DNA from: Levilactobacillus bambusae | GTDB lineage: Bacteria > Bacillota > Bacilli > Lactobacillales > Lactobacillaceae | DNA length: 64,000 nucleotides | NCBI RefSeq assembly: GCF_003124125.1 | Contig: NZ_QCXQ01000001.1 | Span: 62,001 to 126,000 of the forward strand | Direction: 5' to 3' | Shown here: positions 31,192-36,763 of the stretch, piece by piece | How the letters are laid out: the number at the start of each line of letters is the position of its first letter | Numbering within the stretch: the first letter of the stretch is position 1 | The notes under the pieces: generated by a model | What the model was told of the DNA's origin: nothing | The model's input: only the letters and a program-made list of their open reading frames with translations | The model's database searches: none | Made by a program: the position numbers and the translations under genes

Positions 31192-31716
31192 ATGGCAATT
31201 GATTTCACAAAGTATGTGGCGACGGTTCCTAACTATCCAGAGGATGGCGTTATTTTTCGAGACATTTCTCCGTTGATGGCAAACGGAAAAGCCTATCATG
31301 CTGCAACCGATGAAATTGTGAAATATGCTAAAGAAAAGGGTGTCGATATGGTTGTCGGCCCTGAGGCCCGCGGATTTATCGTGGGGTGTCCAGTTGCTTA
31401 TGAATTAGGGGTTGGCTTTGCGGCGGCCAGAAAGGCTGGCAAACTGCCCGGTGAAACCGTTGAGGCCAAGTACGAATTGGAGTACGGAACGTCAGCGCTT
31501 TACCTGCAAAGGGATGCCATTCAACCCGGACAAAAGGTTTTAGTGACGGATGATTTACTGGCGACTGGCGGTACCATTGGCGCTACCATTCAGTTAATTG
31601 AGGACCTGGGCGGGATAGTCGTTGGGACGGCTTTCTTCATCGAATTAGATGATCTCCACGGCCGAGAAAAAATTGAAAGCAACGGTTATGACGTTTTTAC
31701 GTTGATGAATTATTAA
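31192..31716 (+). CDS. apt: Adenine phosphoribosyltransferase
   Basis: Purine salvage: adenine + PRPP to AMP + PPi. 174 aa. Starts [19 protein letters not shown], has GPEARGFI, and the PRPP-binding loop [13 protein letters not shown] near residue 120. ATG 31192 follows AAAGGAG. Co-transcribed with recJ. The next strong terminator belongs to the fluoride riboswitch beyond a new promoter, and no separate apt terminator is obvious. Confidence 0.97.
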
Positions 31717-31732: not shown

Positions 31733-31760
31733 TTGTTTTCTAGCAAAAGACTGCTAAAAT
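31733..31760 (+). promoter_or_regulatory. Promoter of the fluoride riboswitch / P-type ATPase unit
   Basis: TTGTTT, 16-bp spacer, TGC-extended TAAAAT. The start site would be about 31767, 7-8 nt before riboswitch helix P1. Confidence 0.75.
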
Positions 31761-31773
31761 TAAGTTAATAAAA

Positions 31774-31853
31774 TGAGCGATGGTGTTCGCTCAATAAATT
31801 CTTCGGAATTGATGACGCCTACTTCACTTAGATAAGTGAAGTAGGCGTTTTTT
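31774..31853 (+). ncRNA. Fluoride riboswitch (crcB motif) with overlapping terminator
   Basis: P1 GAGCGA/TCGCTC (31775-31780/31787-31792) encloses the loop TGGTGT; the conserved ATAAA follows at 31795-31799, then an AATTC-TTCG-GAATT stem, then GATGACGCCTAC. Loop GGTGT can pair with ACGCC (31815-31819), reproducing the fluoride-sensing pseudoknot with a G-U pair. ACGCC is also the base of a 14-16 bp terminator (31815-31848) with a T-run, so ligand-stabilised pseudoknot and terminator exclude each other: an ON switch with fluoride. GCGATGGTGTTCGC matches known crcB RNAs closely. Confidence 0.93.
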
Positions 31854-31873
31854 CTTACTTAAGGGGGAAAAGC

Positions 31874-34201
31874 ATGGATCAGAATTCACTGGAATCAACG
31901 TATCAGGGGACAGGTTTAACAACGGACGAGATCAATCAGGAACAGCGTCAGTTTGGTCCCAATGTGATTCAACGCTCACAACAAACCACGTTGTTGCAGG
32001 GGATTATTGCCCGATTCTGGGGGCCGATCCCATGGTTGCTTGAAGCCACTTTGATTTTTGAAGTTAGTTTGGGCAACCTATTTCAAACCGTTGTTATTTT
32101 TGGACTACTTCTTTTTTCAGCCGTGGACGGGGCGATTCAGGAACACCGGGCCCAGTCTGCAATTGGTTTTCTTCATACGAAGGAAACAATGACGGCGCGG
32201 GTAAAACGAAATGGGACCTGGCAAACCATTAACGTCGATGATTTAGTTCCTGGTGATATCGTCCACCTATTTGTTGGGGACCTTATTCCAGCGGATGGAA
32301 CGCTCGAAGCAGGTTCGGTCGTTGTGGATGAATCTGAATTAACGGGTGAATCGGCCGCCATTGAAAAGACTGAGGGGGCCACAGTTTCATCGGGAACGGT
32401 TGTTAAGCAGGGGGCTGCTCTGATGCAAGTTGTTAAAATTGGTGCGGCTAGTACGGCGGGTAAAACTGCGGCACTCGTCAAAAACGCTAAGGCCCCGGGG
32501 CAGCTCCAACAGCTTTTATTTACGGTAGTCCGTTATTTAGCCTATATGGATTTGGTATTGATTATTATTTTGGTCATTGTCGCAGTATTTAGGGGGATTC
32601 AGATTCAGGTACTGCTTCCCTTTATGGTGATTTTAATTGTGGCTACCATTCCAATTTCCATGCCCTCTAGTTTTACGGTTGCTAATTCAATTGAAGCTAA
32701 GTACTTGGCTCAACACCAAATCTTGGTTACGGATCTAACAGGAATTCAGGATTCAGCAACCATGACGGTTTTACTGACGGATAAGACGGGAACGCTAACC
32801 ACTAATCGGCCCGTAGTTCAAGGAGTCACTTCGTTTCAAGGGTTAACGGATACGCAACTGCTTCAATTAGCAGCGGTTGCCTGTGATCCCAGTGGAGCTG
32901 GAACCATTGATAGAGCAATTATTGGTGAAGCGGCACAGCGGGGCTTAACTAGTTTACCACGCTTATCTTATACCCCGTTTGATCCTAATAAGAAGGTAAC
33001 AGTGGCCACGACAAAGTGGAACGATCAACCACTAACCGTCACTTTAGGCTCACCAACCGTGCTGCTAACTAGGTTATCAAAAACGGATCAGGCAGTTACA
33101 GATGTGATTCAGGCCGAACAGGATGGGGATCGGGTACTTGCTTTAACGACGAGCTCAAATGGACAACCGGCAACCTTACAGGGATTAATTGCGTTGGCTG
33201 ACGAACCAAGGCAGGATGCGGCAACCTCCATTGCCGATTTACAGGAACGTGGGGTTAAGGTTGTGATGTTAACGGGGGATTCGTCAACCACGGCTAAATC
33301 AATTGCAACAAAGGTTGGGATTGGGCCTAATATAACGGATATTCATAGTGGCCTCGCGCATCCACTGGAATATAATGGCTTTTCCGACGTCTACCCCCAA
33401 GATAAGTTTGAACTCGTGAAAGCTCTGCAAAAAGCGGAAAACGTTGTTGGGATGACGGGGGATGGCATTAATGATGCGCCTGCGCTAAAACAGGCTAACG
33501 TTGGGATTGCTGTTAGTAATGCAACGGATGTGGCAAAGGAAGCCGCTAAGGTCGTTCTAACGGAACCCCGGCTAAGTGATATTAGTAAATTAATTGATAG
33601 CGGGCATCGGGTTTATCAACGCATGCTAACGTGGACGATTACTAAGTTAGCTCGGACAGCTGAGTTGGCAGTCCTACTGACCTTTGGGTACTTACTAACA
33701 GACTTCTTTCCGGTTAATTTAAGCATGATTGTCTTTATTATCGTTATGAACGACCTGGTAACGCTAACCTTAGGAACAGATCGAACGTCGGCTATCACGC
33801 ATCGGCCAGAAAAATGGCGGATGGGACAGATTATTAAAATCGCTAGCATTTTTACAATTGGTTGGCTTATCATTGGCTTTGGGTTATTAGATGTTTATTT
33901 AACCGGTTGGCATTTTTCCCACGCGGTGATTAGTTCTCTGCTATTTGTGTTCCTGATTGACTCACCGATGGCAACGATTTACATGACTCGGACGCGGGGT
34001 CATTTTTGGAAGCTAGCGCCAAGCCGCCCGGTTTTCTGGATGACGTTAATTAACGTTATTGTCGCCAGTGCCATGGCTATATTTGGAATTTTATTGGCTA
34101 AGGCGCCCGTTACTCAAGTTGCGTTGGTGCTAGGAATTGTGGTGGTAATGACCTTTGTTTTAGACGAAGTGAAGGTGCTTTACTATCGCAACCAGAATTA
34201 A
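31874..34201 (+). CDS. P-type ATPase of the H+-ATPase-like (P3A) class under fluoride control
   Basis: Ion-pumping membrane ATPase. 775 aa. Cation-ATPase N-terminal region, A-domain LTGES near residue 155, membrane helix 4 motif PISMPSS (H+-ATPases have PxxMP), phosphorylation site DKTGTLT near 303, and hinge MTGDGINDAP near 527; about ten membrane spans, no N-terminal metal-binding domain. By these features it is closest to plasma-membrane proton ATPases, not to Ca2+ or heavy-metal pumps. ATG 31874 follows AAGGGGG. The riboswitch implies expression when fluoride is present; pumping protons would offset the acid load of HF entry. Ion specificity is inferred. Confidence 0.88.
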   Translation: MDQNSLESTYQGTGLTTDEINQEQRQFGPNVIQRSQQTTLLQGIIARFWGPIPWLLEATLIFEVSLGNLFQTVVIFGLLLFSAVDGAIQEHRAQSAIGFLHTKETMTARVKRNGTWQTINVDDLVPGDIVHLFVGDLIPADGTLEAGSVVVDESELTGESAAIEKTEGATVSSGTVVKQGAALMQVVKIGAASTAGKTAALVKNAKAPGQLQQLLFTVVRYLAYMDLVLIIILVIVAVFRGIQIQVLLPFMVILIVATIPISMPSSFTVANSIEAKYLAQHQILVTDLTGIQDSATMTVLLTDKTGTLTTNRPVVQGVTSFQGLTDTQLLQLAAVACDPSGAGTIDRAIIGEAAQRGLTSLPRLSYTPFDPNKKVTVATTKWNDQPLTVTLGSPTVLLTRLSKTDQAVTDVIQAEQDGDRVLALTTSSNGQPATLQGLIALADEPRQDAATSIADLQERGVKVVMLTGDSSTTAKSIATKVGIGPNITDIHSGLAHPLEYNGFSDVYPQDKFELVKALQKAENVVGMTGDGINDAPALKQANVGIAVSNATDVAKEAAKVVLTEPRLSDISKLIDSGHRVYQRMLTWTITKLARTAELAVLLTFGYLLTDFFPVNLSMIVFIIVMNDLVTLTLGTDRTSAITHRPEKWRMGQIIKIASIFTIGWLIIGFGLLDVYLTGWHFSHAVISSLLFVFLIDSPMATIYMTRTRGHFWKLAPSRPVFWMTLINVIVASAMAIFGILLAKAPVTQVALVLGIVVVMTFVLDEVKVLYYRNQN

Positions 34202-36650: not shown

Positions 36651-36676
36651 AAAAACTTTCTATACCGTACCTGAAA

Positions 36677-36763
36677 GGAGAGTACAGGATTTGAACCTGC
36701 GCGCCGGTATTAGCCGGTTCGACGGATTTCGAGTCCGTTGCATTACCACTCTGCCAACTCTCC
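36677..36763 (-). tRNA. tRNA-Ser(CGA)
   Basis: 87 nt on the minus strand. Acceptor GGAGAGT/ACTCTCC, anticodon stem ACGGA/TCCGT with loop CTCGAAA (anticodon CGA, reads UCG), long class-II variable arm with CCGG pairing, TPsiC arm GCAGG-TTCAAAT-CCTGT. CCA is not encoded. The base at the discriminator position is T, whereas serine tRNAs normally carry G73. Confidence 0.95.

Follow-up and report, generated by a model that had tools for sequence, protein, structure and literature searches.

In a stretch of 64,000 nucleotides from Levilactobacillus bambusae (RefSeq assembly GCF_003124125.1, contig NZ_QCXQ01000001.1, positions 62,001 to 126,000; hereafter "the window"), we find a short leader that carries a fluoride riboswitch aptamer and runs into a complete gene for a P-type ATPase. 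The layout suggests that fluoride switches on a pump akin to the proton ATPases. The features of the locus, all on the forward (+) strand, are:

31733..31760, +, candidate sigma-70 promoter (TTGTTT, 16 nt, TAAAAT), read from the sequence; weak, with 3/6 and 5/6 consensus bases
31767..31828, +, fluoride riboswitch aptamer (RF01734, crcB motif), matched over the full model (1-64)
31774..31793, +, aptamer stem-loop with a 7-bp stem in the fold (31774-31780/31787-31793); the loop GGTGT (31782-31786) supplies the pseudoknot's 5′ strand
31797..31810, +, UUCG-capped second aptamer stem, from the fold
31815..31819, +, ACGCC, 3′ strand of the pseudoknot, common to the terminator 5′ arm, from pair counts and the fold
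31814..31849, +, intrinsic terminator: a hairpin of 16 bp (7 G-C pairs) and, after it, a T run, from a terminator search and the fold
31861..31867, +, ribosome binding site AAGGGGG, read from the sequence, 6 nt 5′ of the ATG
31874..34201, +, P-type ATPase of 775 amino acids (aa), P3A-like (fluoride-linked clade); complete open reading frame (ORF), placed by profile models, tree, alignment and an AlphaFold2 model
31192..31716, +, apt (adenine phosphoribosyltransferase; NCBIfam NF002633, 273.2 bits), the upstream neighbour, thought to lie outside the system

A promoter scan found none above threshold on the + strand between 31400 and 34600.

The aptamer elements follow one another in the order given by a sequence-only reading of this DNA: between 31767 and 31828 lie GCGATGGTGTTCGC, the ATAAA joint, the UUCG-capped stem and GATGACGCCTAC. 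That reading proposed a comparison of the leader with RF01734, and the leader does match, at 34.5 bits against a gathering score of 34 (E = 8.6e-6 with the window searched against all 4227 Rfam families; E = 6.3e-8 in a search of the genome), so that the covariance-model cut-off is exceeded by a narrow margin. Also as first described, GGTGT and ACGCC form a pseudoknot of 5 bp, one of them a G-U pair. We aligned 32 aptamers (31 distinct) from Lactobacillaceae, an enterobacterial plasmid and a Chloroflexota assembly. Among the 31 distinct sequences, 99.4% of the pseudoknot cells are paired, with changes on both sides at four of the five pairs; stem and pseudoknot together are 98.6% paired, with such changes at 6/9 pairs. 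When the partners are slid by one column as a control, pairing falls from 98.6% to 32%-44%, and slides of 1-3 columns give 32%-63%. The fluoride riboswitch is sound by sequence and predicted structure.

The 5′ arm of the terminator begins with a G followed by ACGCC, and the pseudoknot and the terminator would therefore compete for the same bases; the overlap with the base of a strong terminator is as the sequence-only reading had it. The whole hairpin is worth -25.1 kcal/mol, and -10.4 kcal/mol without the six pairs that use the pseudoknot strand. When the fold is extended into the gene, an alternative pairing of the T run displaces the hairpin's bottom pairs; this pairing is absent from the shorter fold. 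The same layout appears in other Lactobacillaceae. A strict search for perfect stems finds a terminator in 10 of the 14 leaders that run directly into the gene for this ATPase, each beginning 15 nt ahead of the point where the aptamer match ends, and in folds the other four have an imperfect hairpin on the same strand. Among 92 Lactobacillaceae leaders, hairpin starts peak at offsets -15 to -12 (48-55 leaders at each), with 30 leaders at -11, 27 at -10, and at most 17 at the remaining offsets tested. An expression platform coupling the pseudoknot to transcription is thus predicted for the leader of the window and for the 14 direct leaders. Since the base of the terminator is the 3′ strand of the pseudoknot, fluoride would be expected to turn the ATPase ON, the logic that the sequence-only reading had also predicted. 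Taken alone, control of the ATPase gene by fluoride appears very probable.

The pairing of switch and pump is not peculiar to this strain. We searched 251 Lactobacillaceae genomes for RF01734 (E 0.001) and for ATPase homologues (E 1e-90). RF01734 occurs in 59 of them, at 92 places (71 at ≥34 bits). The first ORF downstream, available for 91 of the 92 places, is an enolase in 34 cases and one distant case, CrcB in 20 and one distant case, the ATPase in 14, and another gene in 21. There are 48 ATPase homologues, in 46 genomes, and for 27 of these an RF01734 match lies on the same strand no more than 4 kb upstream, where random placement predicts 0.06; a survey of RF01734 hits in this family for downstream P-type ATPases, also proposed in the sequence-only reading, thus finds the link in more than half of the homologues. 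The 27 linked copies are spread over 26 genomes and 11 genera; 14 are the first gene, 12 stand behind enolase, and one behind a CrcB pair. RF01734 is present in 36 of the 46 ATPase-bearing genomes against 10.8 expected, a comparison uncorrected for relatedness. We reject a chance pairing, as the link recurs in 27/48 homologues, 19 of them with matches over the gathering score.

Several other arrangements were seen around these riboswitches. One locus (L059, genome G084) has two divergent fluoride riboswitches back to back, one leading to the ATPase and one to enolase. At L051, L056, L057, and L071, members of a protein cluster represented by DUF190 (Pfam PF02641), and a calcineurin-like phosphoesterase, are encoded directly behind the riboswitch, and on an Enterobacter plasmid, a DUF190 gene adjoins a riboswitch-led gene of the chloride-channel family. 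In six genomes of one genus, g37 (L009-L011, L013-L015), the riboswitch is followed by a HAD hydrolase (PF08282, one representative tested) and then a CrcB pair. Gene pairs of MutS-like appearance stand behind the riboswitches at L056, L065, L067, and L073, as in enterobacterial plasmid islands.

The gene is, as the sequence-only reading held, a full-length P-type ATPase with a PxxMP motif: the complete ORF carries PISMP at residues 260-264, together with DKTGT (303-307), TGES (157-160), and GDGINDAP (529-536). We take DKTGT (phosphorylation), TGES, and GDGxNDxP to be motifs of P-type ATPases, and the superfamily model TIGR01494 scores 266.3 bits against a cut-off of 62.3. Among NCBIfam models, TIGR01647 (plasma-membrane proton-efflux ATPase) fits best, with 528.9 bits to 289.9 for the runner-up; TIGR01524, for the P3B Mg2+ ATPases, reaches 208.5 bits where its cut-off is 610.75. 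Among sequences of solved structures, the three closest belong to plasma-membrane H+-ATPases (5ksd, 7vh5, and 1mhs). The AlphaFold2 model (mean predicted local distance difference test [pLDDT] score, 78.8) has ten long helices, assigned by inspection, in the order expected. Proton-pump entries make up its five top fold matches in the PDB, the nearest being Pma1 and a plant proton pump. By sequence, modeled fold, and tree, the P3A H+-ATPases are the nearest class.

In a search across the order for homologues of the pump, 17 of 295 genomes match, all of them in Lactobacillaceae; across the phylum, four of 398 genomes match at E 1e-90, namely the window's own and three at 34%-35% identity. Among 72,556 plasmid records, 50 have a homologue at the same threshold, including enterobacterial records from Klebsiella (16), Citrobacter (six), and Enterobacter (four), mostly at 42%-44% identity. 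In the three plasmids examined (from Salmonella, Enterobacter ludwigii, and Klebsiella), the ATPase is the last gene in the series ppaC-uspA-eno-gpm-crcB-ATPase, and MutS-like, chloride-channel-family, and cation:proton antiporter genes are neighbors of this operon. RF01734 heads the operon in both of the two plasmids scanned. More distant copies, on the plasmids of Burkholderia, Acidiphilium, Rhodococcus, and Frondihabitans that were examined, lack fluoride neighbors of this kind.

A scan of genome contigs with the single protein found no relative. From a profile scan of genome contigs, we kept the best 80 of at least 587 relatives and searched their loci with our own covariance model, R1, which was trained mainly on Lactobacillaceae aptamers. 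Among these best 80, R1 matches only L142, L143, L145, L150, and L151. For 26 of the 80 (L150 not among them), we also ran Rfam at the gathering score and found RF01734 in L142, L143, and L151; L145 falls below it, with two places at 32.1 and 31.2 bits. The other 54 were searched with R1 only, a model that could overlook switches that are diverged or GC-rich; some of the loci also end near the gene. L142, a Chloroflexota assembly, encodes a pump with 53% identity and has RF01734 ∼100 nt upstream, as well as two further matches in the same 10 kb, one of them before enolase. Because L142 is a metagenome bin, its assignment to Chloroflexota may be wrong.

In a tree of 135 rows, built with a quick method and rooted at the midpoint, all 30 switch-linked rows group together in a single clade of 58 P3A-like pumps with a Shimodaira-Hasegawa-like approximate likelihood ratio test (SH-aLRT) support of 100, and six other P-type ATPases of the same L. 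bambusae genome fall outside the P3A-like group. The switch label needs seven changes on this tree, at least four of them forced by its starred branches, which points to frequent gain and loss of the switch. Judged from sequence, the pump is a member of a recurrent, horizontally spread fluoride set.

The membrane site offers a further comparison. Asp627, in transmembrane segment 6 (TM6), lines up with the Asp that AHA2 and Pma1 have in this segment, which we take to be Asp684 and Asp730, respectively. All 29 switch-linked rows that extend to TM6 keep this Asp (G127, the remaining one, is truncated). Among 29 kindred rows with no switch detected (28 in the clade and the sister row L160), the position is Asn in 22, Ser in one, and Asp in six, and the Asn rows sit on two separate branches of the tree. 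The rows with a replacement are L112, L113, L115, and L121 on the one hand and L114, L120, L156, L157, L159, L161 (Ser), L163, L164, L177, L204, and L245-L253 on the other. For some of these relatives, in Lactobacillus, an enolase gene is still found no more than ∼3 kb away.

Further genes of the L. bambusae genome bear on the fluoride reading. The window itself is free of CrcB (PF02537) and CLC (PF00654) matches in genome-wide searches, which agrees with the sequence-only reading as far as the window goes. Elsewhere in the genome, the same searches find a CrcB pair and three CLC-family genes (C36:110124, C10:629621, and C21:25460), which may carry fluoride or another ion. A second RF01734 match (43.3 bits) precedes a second enolase (C10:734749-736032; L006 2250-3533), which is 56% identical to the enolase of the gap-pgk-tpi-eno cluster (L278). 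Because of the CrcB pair, the three CLC-family genes, and this second riboswitch before the second enolase, the idea of a fluoride-tolerance route that does without a fluoride channel has to be given up, and an organism lacking such a channel is rejected. We likewise reject a CrcB pair governed by a hidden copy of the switch, as the 5.5 kb around the pair has no RF01734 match up to E 5. The genome also encodes an F-ATPase. Apart from this system, the window has a tRNA gene on the minus strand (36676-36763; RF00005, 61.9 bits).

Baker 2012 reportedly analyzed riboswitch-associated genes. In the accessible parts of the open literature (including PMC11477304, PMC9484302, PMC5533749, PMC11139923, PMC5971314, PMC2864571, PMC6785547, PMC9495176, and PMC5508371), we found no full-length P-type ATPase under a fluoride riboswitch, and a prior listing in Baker 2012 is possible. 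As far as these sources go, fluoride defence comprises passive channels, F-/H+ antiporters, Na+/H+ antiporters, and spare enzymes. In aptamer stem, covarying pseudoknot, terminator overlap, and the presence of fluoride-defence genes nearby in relatives, the window's leader resembles known crcB-motif riboswitches. Unlike the RF01734 genes found in the accessible literature (crcB, CLC-F, enolase, pyrophosphatase, mutS, formate hydrogen lyase, and Na+/H+ antiporter), the gene that it would control is a P-type ATPase. Weinberg 2010 (PMC2864571) lists mutS and formate hydrogen lyase along with K+ or Cl- transport. The word "ATPase" occurs zero times in the main text of a 2024 review (PMC11139923), which names Na+/H+ antiporters as the next most common riboswitch genes after exporters and proposes that ion transporters are linked to fluoride because of the availability of divalent metals.

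The sequence-only reading had left open whether the pairing was already listed; it is neither unique to this strain nor wholly unrecorded. The fluoride-riboswitch operon of Enterobacter cloacae FRM holds a co-transcribed 261-bp gene, orf5249, a "divalent cation transporting ATPase" induced 15.5-fold by fluoride (Liu 2017, PMC5533749). The chromosome of Escherichia coli EH09-18-41 (L244 6001-6261) has the same operon with the ATPase cut to 261 bp and followed by resistance-nodulation-division (RND) efflux genes. This remnant matches the plasmid ATPase from its first base, and an RND gene comes next, as in the FRM table. Judged by the E. coli remnant, orf5249 is probably a fragment of the ATPase gene. 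The Salmonella, Enterobacter, and Klebsiella plasmids, which resemble the published FRM operon as far as it was accessible to us (fluoride riboswitch, enolase, CrcB, and ATPase orf), hold a full-length ATPase at the same place. Unlike that 261-bp orf, the pump of the window is full length and stands directly behind the switch.

From the observed aptamer, terminator overlap, recurrent linkage, clade, and conserved TM6 Asp, we infer a response to fluoride in vivo, an ion and direction of transport, and a benefit to the cell. Without fluoride, the leader would be made and its ACGCC taken into the terminator hairpin, and transcription would end before the ATPase gene. With fluoride, as a Mg-fluoride complex, the GGTGT-ACGCC pseudoknot would be stabilized, the base of the terminator blocked, and the ATPase made. 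The accessible parts of the literature describe acidification of the cell by hydrogen fluoride (HF) and a fluoride-sensitive F-ATPase (PMC5508371), a dependence of fluoride export on the proton-motive force, and a tie between fluoride and pH (PMC11139923). HF would enter as a neutral molecule and release H+ and F- inside the cell; F- would leave through the CrcB/Fluc channel, driven by a membrane potential that its own exit discharges. The ATPase, whose clade is found time and again under fluoride switches, in many cases alongside an additional enolase or CrcB, would most likely extrude H+ at the cost of ATP. Such an electrogenic pump would remove the leftover acid and restore the membrane potential on which F- exit depends, while fluoride may be inhibiting the F-ATPase itself. 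Export of H+ by the ATPase is likely, and the mechanism as a whole, a fluoride-inducible unit in which proton export supports Fluc, seems to us reasonably probable.

A number of results weigh against a fluoride-induced proton pump of this kind. The aptamer scores barely above the cut-off, eight of the 27 linked matches in Lactobacillaceae lie under the gathering score (24.3-31.6 bits), and no switch was detected at 21 of the 48 homologues, 20 of which (all but G163) yielded no RF01734 match to E 0.05 on a rescan of ∼3 kb upstream with permissive filters either. Some linked copies look decayed: G052, G213, and G200 have one in-frame stop each, G127 has an open frame of 563 aa, and the match in G226:C102 lacks the first 101 residues. 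The FRM strain without orf5249, crcB, and gpmA still grew on plates with 1000 mg/L fluoride, according to the accessible part of the report, where deletion of orf5249 is described only jointly with other genes (PMC5533749); orf5249, though, is probably only a fragment. With respect to the pump, the window ATPase misses the TIGR01647 equivalog cut-off of 615.5, as do all six relatives scored (L239, L142, L094, L117, L163, and L160, at 440-611), and two canonical H+-ATPases score 1009 and 1037.

The ion site differs as well. The TM2 Asn, presumably Asn106 in AHA2, is Ser82 in the window ATPase and Ser or Ala in 29/29 linked rows with TM2. Of the 58 rows of the clade and L160 in which this position is present, 57 have Ser or Ala (L160 is the exception); Asn stands there in 29/29 canonical and 41/41 intermediate rows. 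The charges in TM1 and TM5 are unlike those of canonical rows: Glu63 of TM1 is found in all 58 rows, position 85 in the TM2 region is mostly Asp or Asn in the fluoride-linked group, and TM5 has R594 with mostly E or Q at 597, where canonical rows have mostly E594 and R597. K591 and R594, both basic and near the membrane site, are invariant in linked rows that reach TM5. Because the TM2 Asn is replaced and the TM1 and TM5 charges are altered, the ion site is remodeled, and the pump is better called P3A-like than a canonical H+-ATPase. It shares the TM4 motif (PxxMP/PxxLP) and the TM6 Asp with Pma1 and AHA2, and only the superfamily and overall fold with MgtA-type Mg2+ ATPases, from which its low TIGR01524 score sets it apart. 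Of the proton pump proposed in the sequence-only reading, the kinship with the proton pumps of fungi and plants thus stands, and proton-pump identity itself is likely rather than certain.

These differences would suit a pump that, under a genuine switch, transports a different cation (Mg2+, Mn2+, K+, or Na+) and so offsets a metal or charge imbalance caused by fluoride chelation. The link to divalent metals drawn in the 2024 review (PMC11139923) and the divalent-cation annotation of orf5249 (PMC5533749) point the same way. The TIGR01647 score, far above that of the Mg2+ model, the nearest folds, and the TM6 Asp kept in every linked row that reaches it argue against another cation, which we consider unlikely. 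Export of fluoride itself at the cost of ATP would suit the association with fluoride genes and the invariant K591 and R594; however, we know of no P-type pump for a small anion, the genome already has its CrcB pair, and the plasmid islands already hold crcB and a chloride-channel-family gene, and we regard such an exporter as very improbable. A wider form of this idea makes the clade a distinct, horizontally spread, ATP-driven pump for fluoride stress that moves something other than plain H+, which could be fluoride or a fluoride-linked ion, a primary active step beside the known channels and antiporters. The TM1 Glu, the Asp/Asn one turn along TM2, and the exchanged TM5 charges would then form a rebuilt membrane site; we hold this to be quite improbable.

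The pump could instead be a spare of some fluoride-sensitive enzyme that the cell overproduces under stress, as with the second enolase, or it could hitchhike in fluoride islands. Enolase copies are under the same control, in this genome too, and decayed ATPase copies would fit a passenger, but 14 copies stand directly behind a switch of their own. As the genome has no second pump of the P3A-like fluoride group (one match only at E 1e-90), the ATPase would not be an extra copy of a housekeeping pump, and this explanation looks improbable. Finally, the narrow margin of the aptamer score would be accounted for if the leader of this strain no longer sensed fluoride, leaving the gene constitutive or silent. 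With stem, pseudoknot, and terminator overlap all intact and a strong link across the family, there is very little to be said for a dead leader.

The relatives provide a natural split that allows a direct test, between linked pumps that keep the TM6 Asp and relatives that replace it and have no detected switch. An ATP-driven pump lies under fluoride switches in three phyla, one of them represented by a single metagenome assembly. If a fluoride-induced, proton-exporting pump is the correct reading, its recurrence would answer what holds the gradient and pH while HF cycles across the membrane, and it would explain the poorly understood orf5249 of a published resistance operon. Because it recurs behind fluoride switches in other bacteria, the pump looks, from its sequence relatives, as though it may be a conserved part of bacterial fluoride defence.

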